Assembly (NCBI GenBank): GCA_905250025.1
Contig: CAJNOJ010000190.1
Location: 141,331-205,330 of the forward strand
DNA: 64,000 bases
Direction of reading: 5' to 3'
From: Adineta ricciae
Lineage: Eukaryota > Rotifera > Eurotatoria > Adinetida > Adinetidae
Part shown: piece by piece, positions 32,654-53,572 of the stretch
Layout: each line of letters begins with the position of its first letter
Position numbering within the stretch: the stretch's first letter is position 1
Program-made: the position numbers and the translations under genes
Notes under the pieces: generated by a model
Told to the model about the DNA's origin: nothing
Database searches by the model: none
The model's input: the letters and a program-made list of their open reading frames with translations, nothing else

Positions 32654-34937
32654 TTAAAATATCTGTTGTCGTCGAGTAGCAGGTTGATGGTCAGCCAATG
32701 GTTTTGATCCATGACGATTAATCCAGCATTGTTTGCAGTACGATCGAAGACAATGAAAGTTTCGACAGAACAAGTCAGCAACCGATGGACAAAATGCACA
32801 CGGTTCGTTTTCACGCAAGAATGGATCAATATCAAGCTAAACACATCGAATCTCACCTCCACTACTCTCATCCTCACATCTAATCAACTCACCAACTTAT
32901 GAAAACAGTCACACTTGATGTCGATCGCACCTGCAGCCACTGCTCGCATGTAACTATGCGAATCGCAGAACAACACCGTTCCAGTACCTACAACACACAT
33001 ACTCTCGCCCTCACATTCATACCACCCTAGCTCACTCACCCGTCGGATATCCATACTTGTCCGTGTTGATCTGAGCCATGGACACCGAGCCAAACACATT
33101 GGCCATGATCGTCGCCAAACTGAATGCAGTCATCTTGCCATGTAGTGGTGACACAAAGATTGTTCGTGACCAATCCTTGTAGGATGGATCGAGGGCGGCA
33201 ATGTTCTCTTGTTGAACGACAAACACGTTGTCTTTCATGTTCCACGGCACAACTTGAATCTAGTGACAGTGAGGGTGAGAGTGGTGATGGTGCAGAAGAG
33301 GGTGATACATACTGGTTTGAGTCGATTGGGTCGAAGTGAAACGCCCGACGATGATGAAGATTGACCTCCGGCTGCTGTTGTTGTCGTTGTTGTTGTGAGT
33401 GTTGATGACGTTAGCGACATGTGAATATGAAGAAAGTAGTCGACGGTCGATCGTTGTTGTCGGGTGCAGTGCTTGAGAAGCTCGCACACTGATCGCGACT
33501 CGCGAAACACAACATGACAAAAACCTGTGTGGAGAGTGTGATTGGGAAGGTGTGGTAAAGTGAGAACGGGAGTGGAGTACCTGGCATGTTGTGACTGAGT
33601 CCGTCGTTTTTGGGCCACTTGATGTTGCACTTGCCGAACTTTCGCAACACCAACAGCAATTCAGCTGAAACGAAAAAGTAGAGAGATGATGGGAGAAATG
33701 ATGCGAATGCTGGCGAACCTTCGGTGAGCTCAGGTGGAATACCACCGAGGAAGACTTTCTGTGAGAAGTGAGTATTGATCTGATACTGATCCATGGTCAT
33801 GGGCTCAAATCTCATGGGCAAGTAGCCTCGCCATGATGGCATGGGATTGGATCGGTTGGCAGTATGAATGACTTGAGGCTGTGGTTGAGACTGAAGAAGA
33901 GGGCCATTGCCTAGAATGAATGATGGAGAATGAGAGAGATTAGAGGAGAAGATGTGGGTGAGAGTTACCAAAGGTCGCAGAAGAAGAAATAGGCCTGAAT
34001 GAAGGTGGCACTCGTTGTAGATCGTTGTCGGTGAGAATGGAAGGAATATTGTCGACTGAAGCGAGTGTTTGTCGGCTAGATAACGGTGTTGATAATGGCA
34101 GAGATGATTGTGGAGTAGTAAAACGATCGATGTTCTCACTGGATGTAATCAATTGATCCGTTGAACTGGTTAGTGTTGATCGAGTCTAAATTGTCAAATT
34201 ACACCTTAATAAGCGAATAATGATTTCGTCGATGAAAACAAATGAGAGAGCACAGATCGATGCTAAATCCGTGGGTTTTTTGATAATCATATAACTTACC
34301 GTTTGTTGCTCAAAAGTTTTGTGATTAGGGATGCTGTTGAATGACATCATAGACGATGATGCTGATAAGCGAGACATCGGTGAAATTAAAACATTTGTTA
34401 ATGATGATGTGGGTACATTTTTCCTATCTCTATTTAAAGTGAAGGAAAATGACGAGAAATTCAGAATGATGATCAACATCCTACTTACAAAACATCTTTA
34501 CTAAAATAGGATTCCCCAGAGGAAAGTTGCTGTTGTTGAGAAAAACTCGAACGAAAATTGAAGTTTTCCATTTCTGATTGCCTAAAATACATTCGATCAA
34601 ACAATTTCATAAACTTAAACAGATCTCAGTCAAGTTCAAAAATGGTGTGACATTAATTGTTTTGAACATACCATCGAATCATTGTTGATGATCGTGAAAA
34701 AGTAGAGTTATCATAAAGAAAATTTTGATTTTCGATTTCTTCATCTATGTCGTTGTATGTTTCATTCGAAACTATAGTTGAATGTAAAGATGGAAACAAT
34801 GATAAGTGAGATGTTGACTGAAGATTACTTTCATTATCCGATGAACCTTCGTAGAAAAGCAATTCGAATAATAATCAAGAATTTGAAAACTCACCTAGAT
34901 CGGATGATGAAGAGGTTTTTAGAAAATGTTTATCCAT
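32654..34937 (-). CDS. CPEB1: CPEB1-type cytoplasmic polyadenylation element binding protein, copy 1
   Basis: Eleven exons: 34895-34937, 34672-34846, 34489-34581, 34300-34429, 33969-34185, 33719-33910, 33581-33664, 33313-33524, 33040-33259, 32893-32987 and 32654-32836. They sum to 1644 nt, 547 residues in frame. The N-terminal half is disordered and rich in Ser, Thr and Gln. RRM1 opens KVFLGGIPPELTE. RRM2 holds SRTIFVSPLHGKMTAFSLAT, then INTDKYGYPTGTGTVLF. The ZZ-type zinc domain has CAFC...LFCRNFHC...YCKQCW...H, the order seen in CPEB1. CPEBs bind the U-rich CPE in mRNA 3' UTRs and control poly(A) length and translation. Codons from 32664 to about 34089 are virtually identical to copy 2, while the 5' exons differ. 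The last residues (QQIF) differ from copy 2. Confidence 0.93.
32664..34089. repeat. Near-identical direct repeat, left copy
   Basis: About 1.43 kb matching 35812-37237 at a constant offset of 3148 bp. I saw one substitution (34063 G versus 37211 A) and none to the left of it. The match covers exons and introns alike. It begins a few codons before the stop codon and ends inside exon 5. Confidence 0.9.
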
Positions 34938-35792: not shown

Positions 35793-38075
35793 TTAAATTT
35801 GCGGTAATGGTTGTTGTCGTCGAGTAGCAGGTTGATGGTCAGCCAATGGTTTTGATCCATGACGATTAATCCAGCATTGTTTGCAGTACGATCGAAGACA
35901 ATGAAAGTTTCGACAGAACAAGTCAGCAACCGATGGACAAAATGCACACGGTTCGTTTTCACGCAAGAATGGATCAATATCAAGCTAAACACATCGAATC
36001 TCACCTCCACTACTCTCATCCTCACATCTAATCAACTCACCAACTTATGAAAACAGTCACACTTGATGTCGATCGCACCTGCAGCCACTGCTCGCATGTA
36101 ACTATGCGAATCGCAGAACAACACCGTTCCAGTACCTACAACACACATACTCTCGCCCTCACATTCATACCACCCTAGCTCACTCACCCGTCGGATATCC
36201 ATACTTGTCCGTGTTGATCTGAGCCATGGACACCGAGCCAAACACATTGGCCATGATCGTCGCCAAACTGAATGCAGTCATCTTGCCATGTAGTGGTGAC
36301 ACAAAGATTGTTCGTGACCAATCCTTGTAGGATGGATCGAGGGCGGCAATGTTCTCTTGTTGAACGACAAACACGTTGTCTTTCATGTTCCACGGCACAA
36401 CTTGAATCTAGTGACAGTGAGGGTGAGAGTGGTGATGGTGCAGAAGAGGGTGATACATACTGGTTTGAGTCGATTGGGTCGAAGTGAAACGCCCGACGAT
36501 GATGAAGATTGACCTCCGGCTGCTGTTGTTGTCGTTGTTGTTGTGAGTGTTGATGACGTTAGCGACATGTGAATATGAAGAAAGTAGTCGACGGTCGATC
36601 GTTGTTGTCGGGTGCAGTGCTTGAGAAGCTCGCACACTGATCGCGACTCGCGAAACACAACATGACAAAAACCTGTGTGGAGAGTGTGATTGGGAAGGTG
36701 TGGTAAAGTGAGAACGGGAGTGGAGTACCTGGCATGTTGTGACTGAGTCCGTCGTTTTTGGGCCACTTGATGTTGCACTTGCCGAACTTTCGCAACACCA
36801 ACAGCAATTCAGCTGAAACGAAAAAGTAGAGAGATGATGGGAGAAATGATGCGAATGCTGGCGAACCTTCGGTGAGCTCAGGTGGAATACCACCGAGGAA
36901 GACTTTCTGTGAGAAGTGAGTATTGATCTGATACTGATCCATGGTCATGGGCTCAAATCTCATGGGCAAGTAGCCTCGCCATGATGGCATGGGATTGGAT
37001 CGGTTGGCAGTATGAATGACTTGAGGCTGTGGTTGAGACTGAAGAAGAGGGCCATTGCCTAGAATGAATGATGGAGAATGAGAGAGATTAGAGGAGAAGA
37101 TGTGGGTGAGAGTTACCAAAGGTCGCAGAAGAAGAAATAGGCCTGAATGAAGGTGGCACTCGTTGTAGATCGTTGTCGGTGAGAATGGAAGGAATATTGT
37201 CGACTGAAGCAAGTGTTTGTCGGCTAGATAACGGTGTCGGTAATGGTAACAAATACTGTGCAGATGACATAGAATGAATATTCTTAGTCGGTACAGTTAC
37301 TGAGCTAGTTGAATTCTTCATGGTTGGTCGGAACTGAAATTATCAGATAAAGCAATATTTAGCATCTTTCGCACATGTCAAGAAGCTTTAGTGTGTTATG
37401 AATCAGTGGCTATAGAATTGATTTTACAGACACTTACTGATCGTTGATTTGTCGGTGGTTGATTGCCGATACTGCTAAATGACATTGTTGATGACGATGT
37501 CGACATGTGTGACATGGGCGAGACGAGAACATCAGTTATGGACGATGAAGCAACATTTTGATTGGTACTGAAAGGACACGATTACAATGAGAGAGTTATG
37601 CTTGAGGTGAATTACGAGTCTTAGTATCGATGAAACTCACCGAAAGTCAGTAATTAAATAGCTAGGTGGTGGCGATAATTGTTCGTTGAGTTGAAAATTC
37701 AAACTTTCGACGTCTGATTGCCTGCAAATCGGATCAAAGTGAATTCAGAGATTTACAATGCCTATGTATACTCACCACCAGCTTACATCAGCTGTTCGCC
37801 GTGAACTATAGTTCTCGCGGAAAAAGTGATGATCATCTAATGAATTTGCAACATTGCTCATATTAGCTAATGTAATTGACGAACGAAGAGGTGAAAGCAC
37901 GGACATAGTCGACATCGGAGGCGCAGTTGCAGTGTTGATACCTGAATCATGAGAAGAAAACTCGGAAAAAACTAAACAGAAATGAATAGTTCGAATCTTG
38001 AAGATATTGCACGGTTTGTAACAACATCGTACTTGAATCGGGTGACGTCGATGTTGTCTTCAATTGATCGTCCAT
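35793..38075 (-). CDS. CPEB1: CPEB1-type cytoplasmic polyadenylation element binding protein, copy 2
   Basis: Same 11-exon plan as copy 1: 38033-38075, 37776-37941, 37641-37721, 37438-37567 and 37117-37333, then six exons at the copy 1 positions plus 3148 bp, ending at the TAA 35793-35795. It totals about 543 residues. Exons 1, 4 and 5 have exactly the copy 1 lengths (43, 130 and 217 nt), and intron phases agree, so the genes are true tandem paralogues. The N-terminal 190 residues are only loosely similar (for example WWQSDVESLNF against RWQSEMENFNF). Both RRMs and the zinc domain are identical to copy 1. The C-terminus ends QQPLPQI. RNA targets are probably the same; regulation through the N-terminus may differ. 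Confidence 0.93.
35812..37237. repeat. Near-identical direct repeat, right copy
   Basis: Partner of 32664-34089 at an offset of 3148 bp; see that entry. Outside these limits on both sides, sequence similarity drops at once to the level expected of old paralogues. Confidence 0.9.
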
Positions 38076-43330: not shown

Positions 43331-44062
43331 ATGGTGTCTACGTCATTTATTGTGTTTATTGCACTCCTCGGGTTAACCAGTGTATATTCGAGTAAGTGTT
43401 GATTTGAACAAGTAATGCCACAAATGAATGGGGTATTAATGTCTAGATATCGACGACTTTGACTGTTTTGAACGAGCTGATCCTGGTCCAGGTCGTGCTT
43501 TCTTTGAATTATACACTTGGAACGCTCGTAACAAGACCTGTACGAAATTTGTTTATGGTGGTTTATTGGGAAATCACAATCGATTTCAAACAAAAGAAGA
43601 ATGTTCCAAAGCATGCCATGACGCCGTCATACGTATGTTTCCTTCTCTTTGTCATGTCATTTATTATTTCGAAATCTTCTAGATAAACAATTAAAATTCC
43701 ATCCAACTCGTCGTTACAGCGCAGTGAATCGTTTACATGAAATGTTTCAGATAGCTTTGAATATTGAAGAAGTCGATCACAATTATTTCAAATTAATCAG
43801 TCAACCAAGTGGAAAAGTCTTGAGTGTGATAACTAGCGACAGATCGTTAACTGTTGGAACACAAGACTTCAGCAATGATAGTTCGCAACTTTGGGATATT
43901 ATTCCAACGCGTGAAAAAGATTATTTCCGAATCAAAACAGTAAGCAGACCAATGGGTCAGATGGATTATATGTTTTTACAAGTAACTGACCAGGATGTCA
44001 CACATTTAACATTAGCCAGACGTGATTATGACGATCTCGGTCAACAGTGGCGATTCATTTGA
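43331..44062 (+). CDS. Secreted protein with one Kunitz domain and a beta-trefoil-like domain
   Basis: Three exons, 43331-43391, 43447-43632 and 43683-44062, give 208 residues. Residues 1-20 are a signal peptide. A Kunitz domain follows (about 25-80): FDCFERADPGPGRAFF, then YTWNARNKTCTKFVYGG and GNHNRFQTKEECSKAC. Four of six family cysteines are present. The pair that forms the Cys14-Cys38 bond of BPTI is missing: GPG replaces GPC, and GGLLGN replaces GGCxGN. The P1 arginine (GRA) is kept. The C-terminal 120 residues, with repeated patterns such as YFKLISQPSGKVLSVI and SQLWDIIP...YFRIKTVS, look like a ricin-type beta-trefoil. Possible role: secreted protease inhibitor or carbohydrate-binding protein; this is inference. 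Confidence 0.85.
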
Positions 44063-44761
44063 AAACTGTTATAAATAAACTGTGCCCTATCAATCATCTC
44101 GTTTTTTTGTACAAAAAAGGCTGATCTGAAGACGGCCTTTTGATCATTTTTTTTTTCATATGTGCAAGGATAGTCTTGTTATTGTTATTGAATATCGATT
44201 ATTCGGCTTAACTCTTGTCATTCGAGTTCGTTTTTCATTTTGATATGTCTTTCTTTTTCGTTGATCATTAAGACTATGAATGACAATAAAATATACTAGA
44301 CAACGACCTTTCATTCGAAATCTGCTGTTAGAACACGTATTTTCTTCTTTTACTTCAAAGAATGAACACGTCTGAAGACGAAAACTTTTCAAAACTCCAA
44401 GGTTAACGGAAATAAAACATCTTGACTTGTTTAATGAAGAGTTCTAGACGTGTAGAATAGACTTCGATCATACCCATTCGAGATTTGTTACTTGAAGTCA
44501 AGGTAATGATTTCGTTGCGAGTTTTTTTGTCAAATGTTTGTCATTATGTCGTTATTACATATTCAAAGCCACATTCTTTCACGTACACACATTTAATCCT
44601 AATAAGATATAGAGGAAAAAAGACAAAGAGAGAGAGAGAGAGAAGAGCTCCGACTTATCAACATATAAACGACGTCTATAAATGTAAGTAAAACGACATT
44701 TTGGATTTGATCACTTTCTATCTCCTTTAATCGAGCTATACGCAGGAATCTTTGTGCAAAT
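44063..44761. other. Intergenic region
   Basis: 3' flank of the Kunitz gene and 5' flank of the repeat-rich secreted protein gene. GA tract near 44628-44642. A short inverted T/A run (gtacaaaaaaggctgatc) near 44110 is not obviously functional. No gene. Confidence 0.45.
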
Positions 44762-47020
44762 ATGCGCTTGAGTTTAATAGTTTTACTATGTTTCGTTATT
44801 GCTCTGGCCACTTCAGCAACGACACGTCGTCGTCCGACTAAAACATCAACACCAAAGTCGGCTTATGCTTACTTACGTACTGTTCGTGGAAACAGTTCGT
44901 GTACTAGCGGATCCTGTCCGTTTTGGGAAAGACACGGACGTTCGTTCGCTGCACTTCGATGCTACTCTCAGCAATATCAAGAATGTACATGTCTCCATCG
45001 CATGTGCTTTAGTTCATGCATGTTTACACGAGAAGTTTGTAATCAAGAAATGGTCTCGTGTTTACGACAAATATGCCCACGTTGTATGCCACCATCGGCA
45101 TCAGCTATGTGCGCTGTTTATGATTCCATGGCTACACGAGTAGCTGAAGCTCTGTCCATCTTTGCTTGCTATCCATGCTGTGCGGTGTTTCATACTACGA
45201 CAGCCAATATTACAAGTATGATTCACTTTTACTTGTGATACTGAGATATGTAAATGTTTGATCTTTTCTAAAGATGTACCTCCAACAACAACTCGTAAGT
45301 TACTACAAGTCTTGTATTAGGAAGTTCTATCGTAAAGATCATTCTCTGTTACTTTTGGCTAGCTGCTATTCCTGAAAGTTCAACAACAGATCCTTTTGCA
45401 TTTACAGACGGTAAGCGAATGGAAATTTATCTATCAATCAAATTTTATCTTGATTTCATTTCATAGGTATGTCAACTAGACACTTTTAATTGATCATTCG
45501 TTCAAAATATGATTTTTCGAATACACTAGACAATCTTGGTCCATCAAATTCAGATAATCCAGAAGGTAATCGATTTCTGTAAAACTTGAAATAGTATTGA
45601 ATGACCTATATATCGATAGTGACAGATGATTACTATACTGGTATCATAAATATCAATCCAACAAGTAAGATAAACTATGCTACGATTTATTTGTATCATC
45701 TGTATCGATTCTTTTTTCGTCTTGTAAGATGCTGTACCAATTAATAATCAAAATACTGGTAAATACGCTTTAGTTATCTTGATTGAACAAAAATCTCAAC
45801 TGTTCATGTAGGATCTCTCCCGACAAATAACGTAAACAATGGAAGTAAGTACGACGTAAAAGATCATTAATTTCTCATTAGAATATCTACACCTGCATAG
45901 TAAAATTTTCATTACTGAAATAAACATTCGCTACAATTGTTTCTAGTCTATACCAATGGAAACGGTAACATCTACCCAAACACAAACACCAACGGTATTC
46001 CTAACACACCCGTCAATACGAATACTAATGCCAATGGAAACGGCATTCCCAACTCGAACACAAACACTTTTACTAATACCAATGGAAATGGTATCCCTAA
46101 CACAAATACAAACGGCAATACATTTACCAATGGAAACACAAATGGCAACATCTATACCAATGGAAACACAAATACAAACGGCAATACATTTACCAATGGA
46201 AATGGTATCCCTAACACAAATACAAACGGCAATACATTTACCAATGGAAATCGTATCCCTAACACAAATACAAACGGCAATACATTTACCAATGGAAACA
46301 CAAATGGTAACATCTATACCAATGGAAACACAAATACAAACGGCAATACATTTACCAATGGAAATGGTATCCCTAACACAAATACAAACGGCAATACATT
46401 TACCAATGGAAACACAAATGGTAACATCTATACCAATGGAAATCTAAACGGTAACGGTAATCCCAACGGAAATCCCAACACTAATGCTCCCGTAAACACA
46501 AATACCAATGGAAACGTTGTTCCCAACACAAACATTAACACGGTACCTAATACAAACACAAATGGAAACCCAAATACAAATGGCAATCCTAACAGTAACG
46601 GTAATGGCAATACCAATGCAGGTGGAAATACAAATGGTGTCAACAGTGTGAACACTGTGAACGGTAACGGTAATGGACTTAGTGGAAACTGTATGATATA
46701 GGCTAAGTTTTACAATCATTCGATCGATTTTTATAGGTGTCGGTACTAATAACTATCCTGGCGTAGTCTTTCCTGGTAGTGATGCAATGTTCTACAACAA
46801 TAACTTCCCTCTTCGAAATCAACAAACTGTCAAACAACGTAGACGTCAAACTGTACGTTCAACAAAACGTCGTTCATCAACAACACGCCGAGCATCAACT
46901 TCAACTCGCCGAACGGCTCAAGCAAATGGTACAGTTCGTGCTAACACTGTCAAAAGCAGTGTTCGTAAACCGGTGCAAGCAGCCAAAAAACCTCAAACAA
47001 ACAATCGTGTCAAAAGTTAA
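44762..47020 (+). CDS. Secreted cysteine-rich protein with Asn/Thr/Gly repeats and a basic tail
   Basis: Nine exons: 44762-45215, 45274-45294, 45363-45410, 45530-45565, 45620-45664, 45729-45758, 45812-45844, 45947-46690 and 46737-47020, giving 564 residues. All eight introns are phase 1, and every internal exon is a multiple of three (21, 48, 36, 45, 30, 33 and 744 nt). Residues 1-19 are a signal peptide. Exon 1 then encodes a domain with about 17 cysteines (around CTCLHRMCFSSCMF and CLRQICPRC). Six mini-exons add Thr/Pro/Asn-rich linker. Exon 8 is a minisatellite encoding TNTNGNTFTNGNGIPN-like units. Exon 9 is rich in Arg, Ser and Thr (RRRQTVRSTKRRSSTTRRAS). I do not recognise the family. 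A structural, matrix or mucus role is a guess. Confidence 0.75.
45947..46690 (+). repeat. Coding minisatellite of Asn-Thr/Gly-Asn units
   Basis: Built from 6-nt words for Asn-Thr and Gly-Asn grouped into units of about 48 nt (TNTNGNTFTNGNGIPN) and related units with NIYTNGN. Two 117-nt-scale blocks near 46120-46240 and 46280-46400 are almost the same, so the array grew by slippage or unequal exchange. Because the repeat lacks stops, other frames are also open here and are not genes. Confidence 0.9.
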
Positions 47021-47983
47021 CTCTTGATGATACATTCATACATATGTCTTTATTTTCTTTCTTTTTCCCTTAAATAAAAGCATTTTGTCATATTATTGCA
47101 AAGTTTTTCGATATAGACTAGTTTATTTCATAGAGAAACATGTAGATTCTGATTCCGTTTTCGTCGATACATATCGATACACGTAGTTTCACTACATAAA
47201 CATTTCTGTAATAAAAATGCACTGAAGCGTCAAAGAAATATTGTACATGCCCACGCTTCTGCGCGTCATCCACTCTTTCTTTCTTTTTTTCTCAATGCAT
47301 CTCTTTTGGATTCTTTTTTTTCCTAACCTTGTACTGATTTATTTCATAGAAGTAGAGACGTCGTTATACACGCATCGATTGCACGTTCTCACACATGTCG
47401 ATACATGTTGTCTCGCTATTCCTGACATCGAAAATGGCGAAGTCATGGTTTTATTTATGAGTGTATCGTTGCTAGTCAGCAAATATCATCGTCATCATGC
47501 TGCTTGCTGACGTGTGACGCGTCCTCTTCTCGCCTTTTCATGCATTGTATAATTCGTTGTCTCTATTTTTCTTTGCCTCTTTTTGAAGCACTTTTTTCTC
47601 AAGTTGGCCATACGACACACACACGTATTCGGCAGAACCTTTCCTGACTGTCGATCGGACAGCCAAAGAGAAGGCGAGAAAGATAGAGAGAAAATGAGAG
47701 AGACAGAAAGAGAAGCATAGAGGACGATAGAGAGACGAAGAGACAGCAACAAAATTAACACATCCTCATTGAAGCACATCAAGGTAGAAAAGAAAGGTTT
47801 TCTTTTGCATTTCTCTCTTTTTCTTCTATTCTCTTTCTTTCTTTCTTGCTTCTGGAGTCCAGTTGTTGTTTGTTGTTGACGATCATTATAATTGCTGAGC
47901 TCTTCTATTTTACATTGTTGTTGAGCGAAATTCTTGTCATTTTTTCAGAAAAAATAAGTGGTACCGCCTGCTGATCTACAGCT
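47021..47983. other. Intergenic region
   Basis: No supported gene. It has pyrimidine-rich tracts and GA-rich stretches (47660-47740). A TTTTTTCAG acceptor-like site occurs about 35 nt upstream of the next ATG. Confidence 0.45.
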
Positions 47984-49829: not shown

Positions 49830-50169
49830 ATGGTCAATCCTATAGGCGCCGCGCTCGGTCCGGTCGGTGGTCTTGCAGCATGTGCTTGCTGCTTAATCAT
49901 TGCTGCTATCTGGGGTCTCTTTGCCACCACCATTGCATTGGCGGTTTATACAAGTAAGAATGACGTTATTCTCGGAGAATTCCTTTCGATCAAACTTGTT
50001 ATTTTTCTTTTCTAAACTCGTAGAACAATGGCGAGATGCCATCAGATCAGCAAATAACTTGAGCGGTGCTGGAGATCTACACATGTTTTTCAGTCATGCA
50101 CTTCTTCTTGGTATTCTGTGCGTATATGGTTATCTCGGAGTTCGCCGAGCACTTCGCACGGCCAATTAA
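49830..50169 (+). CDS. Small two-TM protein with GPxGGL/CxCC motif, copy 2
   Basis: Two exons, 49830-49953 and 50024-50169, give 89 residues. It begins MVNPIGAALGPVGGLAACAC, then CLIIAAIWGLFATTIALAVY as the first membrane segment, a loop ending SGAGDLHMF and a second segment (HALLLGILCVYGYLGV). It is a paralogue of the gene at 47984 but lacks that gene's basic N-terminal region. The shared intron falls at the same place, A|AA here and A|GT in copy 1, both after the first base of the codon. Function unknown. Confidence 0.75.
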
Positions 50170-50802
50170 ATGAACAAATATAAATAATTGTTTAAAACGA
50201 ATACAAAAGTGATATCGAAACTACCAACGCCAACACTCTTTTCTTTTATNATTGAACTGCTCAGCGAAGGCGTTTGAGAATCGATTGCTTGGATTTGGAA
50301 ATCATAATAATACGAAGAATATAATGCTAATGAACGGACGGTGAATGAAGCATTGAATGAATCGATTGAGATGAGATCTGGTACGGAAGAAACGTATCTG
50401 ACATGTGATGGAAGTGCTCGGAGAGAGAATTCCGACATGTTTTTACTATTTCTTTTCTCTTCCCTTCCATATACAACCATATATCGTGTTGAGAGATAAG
50501 ATTTACATGGAAGATGATGAACATATTTTATGATGATAGACAACATTTGTTGATGAGTTAGCAGCAGCAGCAGGACGAAGAATTGTTAGTATGCAAAGGT
50601 ATGCATGTTCATGAAGAAAAGCTGTTAAAATCCGAAATGAAAATATAAATGAATATTCATGTGTGAAGATGAGACATAGACAGGATAAGACGATGAAGTG
50701 ACAATCGTTGACAAACACGTGTCTATAGTCATATTTTGTCTTTCTCATCCAATTGAGAAAATTTACATCAAGGAAATGCTTTTCTCTGTTTCAGATACAA
50801 AC
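50170..50802. other. Intergenic region containing an inverted cadherin fragment
   Basis: Apart from the fragment listed separately (50251-50448), this holds AT-rich sequence, a short GCA/GCT run near 50563-50575 and the cadherin 5' flank. A CTGTTTCAG acceptor lies 8 nt before the cadherin ATG. An N occurs at 50250. Confidence 0.5.
50251..50448 (-). pseudogene. Inverted partial copy of a cadherin exon
   Basis: These 198 bp, read on the minus strand, match 52533-52730 of the cadherin gene at about 95% identity with no length change. The frame is intact (KNMSEFSLRALPSHVRYVSS onward), with substitutions such as VDPFN to IDSFN. The match stops abruptly on both sides, on one side exactly at the N at 50250. 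There is no start, no splice context and no further cadherin sequence, so it is a dead fragment or an assembly scar. Confidence 0.85.
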
Positions 50803-53572
50803 ATGTCTCGACTTCTACTTTTCATTTTCTTGTTTCGGTTATCCAAATCTATGAATTTACTTCACGAAATATCCATTCAAGAAGAATTACCTCTTGGCTC
50901 TGTGGTTACTTCCCTCACTGACAAGATTCCTAATTTAGATCAGTCGATCGAATACGATCTTGTGACACCTTCATCGAATGATTTGGATCTATTCTCGATT
51001 GATCACAAACAACATGCGCTGATAACAAAACGTCGTCTCGATTATGAATATCTTTGTTTAAAGAAGAAAATCTGTACAATTTCTGTAAGTATAGCTGTGT
51101 CCAATGAGAATACGATTGATGTTTATATTCTTCCAATTCGAATATTGAATATCAATGATAATTTCATCCAATTTCATGTTAATCGAACAGTAATCGAAAT
51201 CGATGAGAATGATGAAAACTGGTCGAAGAAGAGTTATCTTTTGCCAGAAGCTTATGATGACGATGGCGATTCAATCACGTATTCAATATATTTACAAAAC
51301 TGGATTAAACCAGATGGATTATTCGATTTCGATGAAACGAATTTATTATTAAAACCAATGAAGAAATTCGATCGAGAAGAACAAAATATCTATCTTCTTC
51401 GTTTAATCGCTCATAATCAAAACGATGCATCGACTGACATCATCATTCTCATTCGAGATGTCAATGATAATGCACCGAAATGCGAACATAATCAAACCGT
51501 CTTCCTCATTTCTAATCTCTCCGGTTTGACTTTCCTTTCATTGAATGCTACCGATCTCGATGAAGGTGACAATGCTAAATTAGAATACCGTTTAACGAAT
51601 CCATCACCAGGTTTTAGTATCGATCGATACAACGGTCAGATTAAATTCGACTCGAAGAGATGGATGCGTTCGAACGAATCGATATTAATCGTGAATGTTA
51701 CCGATCATGGAAAACCTTTATCATTATCGACCCGATGTTTTGTCGAAATCCAATTCACATCGATTTATCACATTGACTTTCATTCGAATATTTCCATCAT
51801 CAATCAAACAACGATTCATTTCAATGTGAAAAATCTTCATCAGTCACTTGGCCAATTTCGAATCTATGACAAACAACAAATGAAATTATGTTCGAATTGT
51901 TTCATCAGTCTGAGCTCAACGTACGAAGATATATTCAAGTTGAATTCGTCGACCTATGATTTATATCTGAATCTAGATTCGATGTATCTAATGAGAATTT
52001 TAACGAATTATTCGAATAGAAAAGAAAACTTGTCCTTGAATTTTCAAATTCAAATCAGCAGTTCATTCAATCCGTCGATAATCTCGATGAAAAATTACTC
52101 AATAGTTATCTTTTTCAATAAAGTTCATCTATTAACCCATTCGAACATGTTTTTCTTGAAAATCGACCAGAACATTCCTCTTTACGAACGAATTCCTCTT
52201 TACAACCGTTATCATCATTGTTTGAACAATCAATCAACTGAACTGGTCTTGTTCGACCCAACACAAACATTTCAACTAGACGACAATCTCAATTTAGTCT
52301 TAATGAAATATTTAAATGTCAAACAACGAAAGTTCTATCAATTAATACTCCAGCAGAACCTGAACAATTCGACGAATGACGTAAGTTCTCACGAATCTGT
52401 TCTTCATTCTGAATAACTTTTTTGTTTTGTATAGATAAAACCATGTTCGATTCAGTTGAATCTTTATATTCTCGATTCTTATTCATCTGCACATGTCTTA
52501 CCATATTTCTCTCATCCATTCTACGTCTTAACTAGTAAAAACATGTCGGAATTCTCTCTTCGAGCACTGCCATCTCATGTCAGATACGTTTCTTCCGTAC
52601 CAGACCTCATCTCAGTCGATCCATTCAATGCTTCATTCACCGTCCGTTCATTAGCATTATATTCTTCGTATTATTATGATTTTCAAATCCAAGCAATCGA
52701 TTTTCAAACGCCTTCGCTGAGCAGTTCAATTCCTATTCGAATCTTTTTCGGAATAAACAAATACCCACCTTACCTTTTAATCAACTCGACAAGACTCTCG
52801 ATCGAGATTTTCTCGTCAAGATTTTTATATCAAGTCAAAGCTTACGATCCGGATATAATATTTAACGAAGAAATGAATGTTTTAGTGCCTTCGATAGAAT
52901 ATGAAGTTGACCCATCGACGAACATCGAAATCGAACGTTTTACCGGTCGGATATTTCTAAAGAATTTCAATAAGACAAAGATTAATTTTACATTGATTAT
53001 GACCGACTTCGGTCAACCAAATCGATTAATCACAAAGCAATCATTAGTTTTCGACATTCAATCAAGAGAAAATCTTTCGGTCTCGTTTCTATTCATACTC
53101 ATCTTTACTCTGTTTATTATCGTTTTACTCGGTCTTCTGTTAATATTCATGAATTGTTGTTGTAAAAAACGTCAGAAATCTTTGAAAACCCAAGATAAAA
53201 CGACTTGGAAAAACATTTCACCAACAGCACCGAATACTTCCTTGATCGACAACGAATATGTAAGTTCACTGTCTAGTATTTCTTTCTTCACACTCATTTT
53301 TCGTTTAGTTAACAACATCTTTACCTCGTGAACAACGAGTTCATCCAACTCGTGCGAAAAGTGATACACTTCAACCTCGACGAATGTTTCCTCATCTTTC
53401 CTTAGAGAGAGTTAATCTTCCATATTCATGTGAGATCCTTTCTGCTGGAGAGGACTATCAACAACGTTTGTCGATGACAGATATCAACAAATATTTGGAA
53501 CGTTTTGAAAAAATCTATAATGACTCATCGTCGCAACAATATTTACATCAACCTGTTGGATCTGTTGTATAA
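50803..53572 (+). CDS. Cadherin-repeat single-pass membrane protein (protocadherin-like)
   Basis: Three exons, 50803-52380, 52435-53259 and 53309-53572, give 888 residues. The start MSRLLLFIFLFRLSKSMNLL gives a signal peptide and follows an acceptor 8 nt upstream. Several cadherin repeats are visible through calcium-binding motifs: NINDN near residue 120, YDDDGDS and DREEQN near 160-205, DVNDNAPKC near 225 and ATDLDEGDNAKLEYRL near 250-265. Later repeats (about 330-730) are divergent. A transmembrane helix lies at about 763-785 (FLFILIFTLFIIVLLGLLLI), followed by a Cys patch and a cytoplasmic tail of about 100 residues that lacks an evident catenin-binding motif. It is probably an adhesion or recognition protein; the subfamily is not certain. 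A fragment of exon 2 is copied inverted upstream. Confidence 0.88.

Follow-up and report, generated by a model that had tools for sequence, protein, structure and literature searches.

A predicted secreted three-part protein of Adineta ricciae with a linker encoded by symmetric phase-1 mini-exons and a coding minisatellite

The micro-exon genes (MEGs) of schistosomes code for secreted proteins and have been described as having a long exon at either end, the 5' one with the signal peptide, and a central series of micro-exons, most of them symmetric (PMC4671649, PMC4699917). The micro-exons have a reported size range of 6-36 nt (PMC4699917), and 26 of the 33 internal micro-exons of MEGs 26-32 are given as symmetric (PMC4671649). 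Thr, Ser and Pro are described as abundant in the predicted disordered parts of 13 head-enriched MEG proteins (PMC4671649; PMC4699917, PMC4350168). In 2015, MEGs were reported to be apparently restricted to platyhelminths, and they were tied to the host-parasite interface (PMC4350168). Micro-exon organisation has also been listed among the proposed gains that came with parasitism, with the caution that a link to parasitism is unproven (PMC4398949). Our search of the literature on micro-exons in bdelloids and other rotifers, which left subscription papers largely outside its scope, found no paper on a rotifer micro-exon gene by title.

The gene analyzed here is located on the forward strand at positions 44762-47020 of the window, by which we mean the whole 64,000-nt stretch of Adineta ricciae DNA under study. 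Its splice sites were read from the sequence, and they define nine exons of 454, 21, 48, 36, 45, 30, 33, 744 and 284 nt that were also returned by a gene finder. The product has 564 residues, with a hydrophobic leader at its start and a tail rich in Arg and Lys at its end. Exon 1 (44762-45215), which ends in phase 1, encodes a signal peptide, judged as such by inspection, and a Cys-rich head. It is followed by mini-exons 2 (45274-45294, 21 nt), 3 (45363-45410, 48 nt), 4 (45530-45565, 36 nt), 5 (45620-45664, 45 nt), 6 (45729-45758, 30 nt) and 7 (45812-45844, 33 nt), and then by exon 8 (45947-46690, 744 nt), an Asn/Thr/Gly coding minisatellite with an alternating N-x-N-x pattern. The core of this minisatellite (46077-46484) consists of overlapping arrays with periods of 36, 48, 114 and 162 bp, all of which are multiples of 3. 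Exon 9 (46737-47020) encodes the basic tail and the stop codon. Upstream of exon 1 there is a candidate 5' UTR intron of 62 nt (44684-44745 on the same strand, GTAAGT...CAG), and an AATAAA polyadenylation signal is found downstream of the stop codon (47073-47078, same strand).

A first-pass annotation of this DNA had claimed that all eight introns are in phase 1 and that all seven internal exons are multiples of 3, six of them between 21 and 48 nt, and we reproduced these counts exactly (8/8, 7/7 and 6); the introns, of 46-119 nt, are all of the GT-AG type. Its statement that exons can be removed without a frame change also holds: since the internal exons are without exception phase 1-1, every subset joins in frame, and all 128 internal-exon subsets are open. 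The tail, announced as Arg-rich, is rich in both Arg and Lys, with a net charge of +20 across the last 95 residues. On the other hand, the "17-Cys head" must be adjusted, as the mature head has 15 cysteines, and the other two are located in the signal peptide and in the codon at the junction of exons 8 and 9. The description as a modular extracellular protein stands with regard to modularity, while the leader makes an extracellular location probable only.

The gene finder started from a generic splice consensus and learned from 200 kb of other contigs, taken as four 50-kb blocks; an earlier version, which had taken its splice models from the window gene and its diverged copy (see below), was excluded as evidence. 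This held-out version predicts all nine exons of the window gene base for base. The background consisted of 45 predicted genes with 461 introns and 420 internal exons, whose phases were used as predicted, and it covers about 0.15% of the genome. These are not 45 independent genes, because a gene of one block may have a copy in another, and two multi-exon background genes (C20 and C80) have many exon lengths in common. Phase 1 is the commonest phase in the background (phases 0, 1 and 2 account for 175, 194 and 92 of the 461 introns), and 41 of its 88 internal exons of up to 66 nt are symmetric. In the window gene, six symmetric mini-exons (up to 66 nt) follow one another without a break, whereas the maximum in the 45 background genes is two, and internal exons are symmetric throughout in none of the 30 background genes with at least four of them. 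None of the 32 background genes with at least four introns keeps to a single phase, and their longest phase-1 runs are 6, 5, 5 and 5; the single phase taken alone is a weaker oddity than the run of symmetric mini-exons. Finally, when the sequence lying between exons 1 and 8 was shuffled 1000 times with dinucleotides preserved, the best score was 57.9 versus 77.2 for the real sequence, and the longest symmetric mini-exon run in the shuffles was three, obtained once.

A search of the 130.5-Mb assembly identified a near copy (C10) and a diverged copy (C405), with flanks that match on either side as well. Besides a distant phospholipase A2 (PLA2), this search found only the window locus and these two copies and no expanded family; no fourth copy, which a degenerate tetraploid should have, turned up among its matches. 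GC content in five stretches of the genome (0.348-0.370), the median intron length (55 nt) and the synonymous divergence of the near copies (0.133) and of the diverged heads (1.545) agree with the values published for A. ricciae, which are given as 35.6% GC, a median intron of 55 and Ks of 0.14 and 1.27 (PMC5916493); the published assembly, at 174.5 Mb, differs in size.

The head of the near copy is 97% identical to that of the window gene at the protein level, and the 17 base differences in exon 1 comprise 13 synonymous and 4 nonsynonymous ones. All 16 splice sites and every mini-exon length are kept, as are the sites of the candidate 5' UTR intron; mini-exon 5 is identical, and all 128 internal-exon subsets are again open. 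Exon 8 has a length of 660 nt in the near copy versus 744 nt in the window gene, and the gaps in their alignment (18, 6 and 60 nt) are all multiples of 3. The minisatellite proposed in the first-pass annotation is present as repeat arrays, and the exon that contains it has changed length in frame. The held-out gene finder predicts all mini-exons of the near copy and splits its exon 1 in two, which is taken as a gene-finder error.

The diverged copy, predicted whole by the held-out gene finder, has exons of 451, 30, 48, 21, 45, 66 and 311 nt, including five symmetric mini-exons, with 6/6 introns in phase 1 and 32/32 subsets open. Its head matches that of the window gene at 66% over residues 1-143, and its tail weakly so, at 40% over 67 residues (E 0.026). 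It lacks the minisatellite; at the position of the 744-nt exon, its 66-nt penultimate exon carries a short Asn-rich unit twice, and the minisatellite may have grown from an exon of this kind. When mini-exons were compared between the window gene and the diverged copy with 15-nt flanks, 3 of the 30 pairs beat all 200 shuffles, namely window exon 2 with exons 2 and 4 of the diverged copy, and window exon 6 with its exon 2. Within the diverged copy, one of ten pairs (exons 2 and 4, with flanks) beats 200/200 shuffles. Descent or duplication seems to connect some of the mini-exons, though not the majority, and the window and diverged copies appear to display the result of evolutionary exon turnover. 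Together with the in-frame change between the near copies, this turnover agrees with the earlier claim of a protein of variable length. That exons 8 and 9 belong to the same gene as the mini-exons, as had also been claimed, is backed by the held-out prediction and by the diverged copy, whose mini-exons are joined to a last exon that is likewise basic.

In the surroundings of the gene, window positions 49857-51118 comprise about 1.26 kb that interrupt stretches contiguous in the near copy (L003:8357/8359). The open reading frames in this segment look cadherin-like by eye, and positions 50320-50451 match, inverted and at 99%, L003:9770-9901, farther down the same region of the near copy. Just upstream of the window gene, a gene at 43331-44062 (forward strand) encodes a stretch that is, by eye, Kunitz-like and Cys-rich, followed by another stretch; it was predicted in the window by the first gene finder only, and in the near copy by the held-out one, with intron phases 1, 1 and 0. 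Farther upstream, the adjacent gene models at 32654-34937 and 35793-38075 on the reverse strand form a tandem duplication, with 8 of 11 exon lengths equal and identical long open reading frames of 124, 141 and 178 aa.

Judged from codon changes, the head is strongly constrained and the linker loosely. The dN/dS ratio of the head is 0.088 between the near copies and 0.12 between the window and diverged copies, and that of the mini-exon linker is 0.61 between the near copies, a value derived from just 5 synonymous and 10 nonsynonymous changes. For the end of exon 8 outside the repeat, the ratio is 0.137, and for the tail 0.13 and 0.56. It should be noted that the near copies differ at 15 of 213 positions in the mini-exons and at 42 of 564 in the introns, and less in the flanking DNA (46/994 upstream and 25/655 downstream). 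Because the mini-exons differ as much as the introns and more than the flanks, their substitution rate is no proof of coding and was ruled out as such; the case that they are coding instead rests on splice sites, frame, the held-out prediction and the diverged copy.

The protein had been regarded as undescribed. In Pfam, no family reaches its cut-off for the three heads, including PF06951, and a PDB sequence search with the head gave no match at E 10. A match to YxzE over residues 4-50 (E 0.029) scored 15.8 bits where the cut-off is 40 and was dismissed, and a single-sequence AlphaFold2 model of the head (pLDDT 46.7) was set aside. The first-pass annotation must be modified here, in that the head does have relatives. 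A search of the proteins of the same genome matched, at E 0.004, a protein (C259) that Pfam identifies as a group XII PLA2 (7e-13), and hhalign of the head profile against this protein gave a probability of 70.7. An HMM built from 12 PLA2-like loci of the genome (of 14 matches), some of which are close copies of each other, scores 15.4 bits on the window head, more than 6000/6000 shuffles, while on the head of the diverged copy one shuffle scores higher. The spacing C-x3-H-x2-C-x3-C-x6-C-x6-C-x4-C, which was picked post hoc after viewing the alignment, is exact in all three heads and in 9 of the 12 loci, and not one of 300000 shuffled versions of the window head has it. The catalytic His-Asp pair is absent, with HR in place of HD in all three heads, and so is the CGP calcium loop, where by inspection the window head has CPFW; those PLA2 proteins of the genome that reach the loop have CGP, CGG or CGT. 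With these two losses, the head is probably a dead enzyme, a domain derived from PLA2G12. Vertebrate PLA2G12B, which is reported to have lost catalysis and taken on another role while retaining its calcium-binding domain (PMC10920679), may serve as a precedent for such a loss. In the genome as a whole, PLA2G12 gave 14 matches at E 1 or better (loci L010-L021), nine of them over the family cut-off. The matches at L014, L015 and L018 lie within open frames of 526-559 aa, in which a Cys-rich stretch precedes the PLA2 motif.

Exon 8 has a composition of 40% Asn, 21% Thr and 17% Gly; for 71 of its 98 Asn residues the residue at +2 is again Asn, and for none of them is it Thr or Ser. Selection against N-glycosylation sequons was considered, since residue shuffles have a mean of 20.3 sequons and exon 8 has none; however, a first-order Markov null gives 0.7, and the idea was dropped because the N-x-N-x alternation accounts for their absence.

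At the level of DNA sequence, these comparisons document the gene model, the same plan in two further copies, the constraint on the head, the looser linker and the in-frame length change. The explanation that we consider probable is that of a secreted protein in three parts: a signal peptide followed by a strongly conserved, group-XII-PLA2-like and probably catalytically dead Cys-rich head; a low-complexity Asn/Thr/Gly/Pro linker encoded by symmetric phase-1 cassette exons and the coding minisatellite; and a basic tail. With every internal exon being frame-neutral, the linker could lengthen or shorten by exon gain, loss or duplication and by repeat slippage while head and tail remain untouched, and its mini-exons might additionally be skipped in splicing. 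Going by composition, the head and the basic tail would bind partners with the linker as a tunable spacer, and a role as an extracellular matrix, mucus, glue or coat protein seems most likely. A bolder version, possible but rather doubtful, is that the linker, on which the dead-enzyme head is displayed, has its length and sequence set by combinatorial skipping of the seven frame-neutral exons (128 open combinations), that a free-living bdelloid evolved MEG-type secreted proteins independently, and that the minisatellite arose from an ordinary mini-exon after genome duplication.

A narrower reading, which overlaps with the three-part explanation and has about an even chance of being correct, is that all mini-exons are always included and that their symmetry is an evolutionary footprint of duplication and of insertion into phase-1 introns, without regulated or combinatorial splicing. 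Once one intron is in phase 1, exon gain and loss alone result in symmetry; phase 1 is the commonest phase here, exons 2 and 4 of the diverged copy look duplicated, and in none of the three copies are the splice sites unusual or damaged. None of our results goes against this reading, but symmetry of all internal exons in each copy would also be maintained by the use of skipping. That the model is an artefact, with exon 1 as a short gene, exons 8 and 9 as a second one and the mini-exons as chance pairs of splice sites between them, is very improbable. The window gene model is known from the DNA sequence alone, and the mini-exons evolve at intron speed between the near copies, as this reading would have it; against it are the held-out prediction of all nine exons, the held-out recovery of the same plan in the diverged copy, which has a largely different linker, and the fact that none of the 1000 shuffles reached the real score.

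Two further readings concern the function of the linker. It might belong to a hypervariable secreted protein of interaction or defence, in which, as has been suggested for schistosome MEGs, an exposed linker gains diversity from splice variants and repeat variants. The exon plan is the same as that described for those genes (PMC4671649), the linker evolves faster than the head by dN/dS, and the minisatellite turns over between the near copies. Yet substitutions are few, the ratio of the linker stays below 1 with no sign of positive selection, and the genome search found one locus with two copies besides a distant PLA2, not an expanded family, so that we regard this function as unlikely. Less probable still is that exon 8 encodes, rather than a disordered spacer, a folded beta-solenoid that might for example bind ice or protect against stress, with the mini-exons as its lead-in. 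The N-x-N-x alternation with Thr and Gly in between would suit such a fold, and a single-sequence AlphaFold2 model has short strands at a repeat of about 16 residues. This model, however, has a pLDDT of only 42.6 and found no Foldseek match at E 0.001 or better (best E 0.44), and the repeat is absent from the diverged copy.

How, then, does the three-part protein compare with known systems? One His and six Cys around the active-site helix are spaced in the window head exactly as in group XII PLA2 (PF06951), but the head differs from that family in lacking the HD pair, the CGP loop and a Pfam match, and in being fused to a linker and a tail. Elastin and other extracellular proteins have small symmetric phase-1 cassette exons that encode low-complexity sequence, like the linker described here, although their composition differs from that of the window gene product. 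The retention of a near and a diverged copy means that exon gain, exon loss and repeat growth can be compared within one genome.

As in schistosome MEGs, the signal peptide of the window gene is in a long 5' exon, the 3' exon is long and small exons are located in between; the symmetry of internal exons is likewise a common feature (7/7, 7/7 and 5/5 in the three copies). On the other hand, the mini-exons of the window gene and of the diverged copy reach 48 and 66 nt, respectively, and so go beyond the MEG size range; only 4 of the 6 in the former and 2 of the 5 in the latter are within 36 nt. Nor do they make up the majority of the coding sequence, of which they constitute 12.6%, 13.2% and 21.6% in the three copies. 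Because two defining features, micro-exons of at most 36 nt and a coding sequence that lies mostly within them, are lacking, we do not class the window gene as an MEG. It further differs from MEGs by its constrained Cys-rich head, its minisatellite exon, its basic tail and its richness in Asn. MEGs are flatworm genes, whereas the window gene is from a non-flatworm genome. If its plan is real, strings of symmetric mini-exons can also arise without parasitism, in a free-living asexual rotifer.
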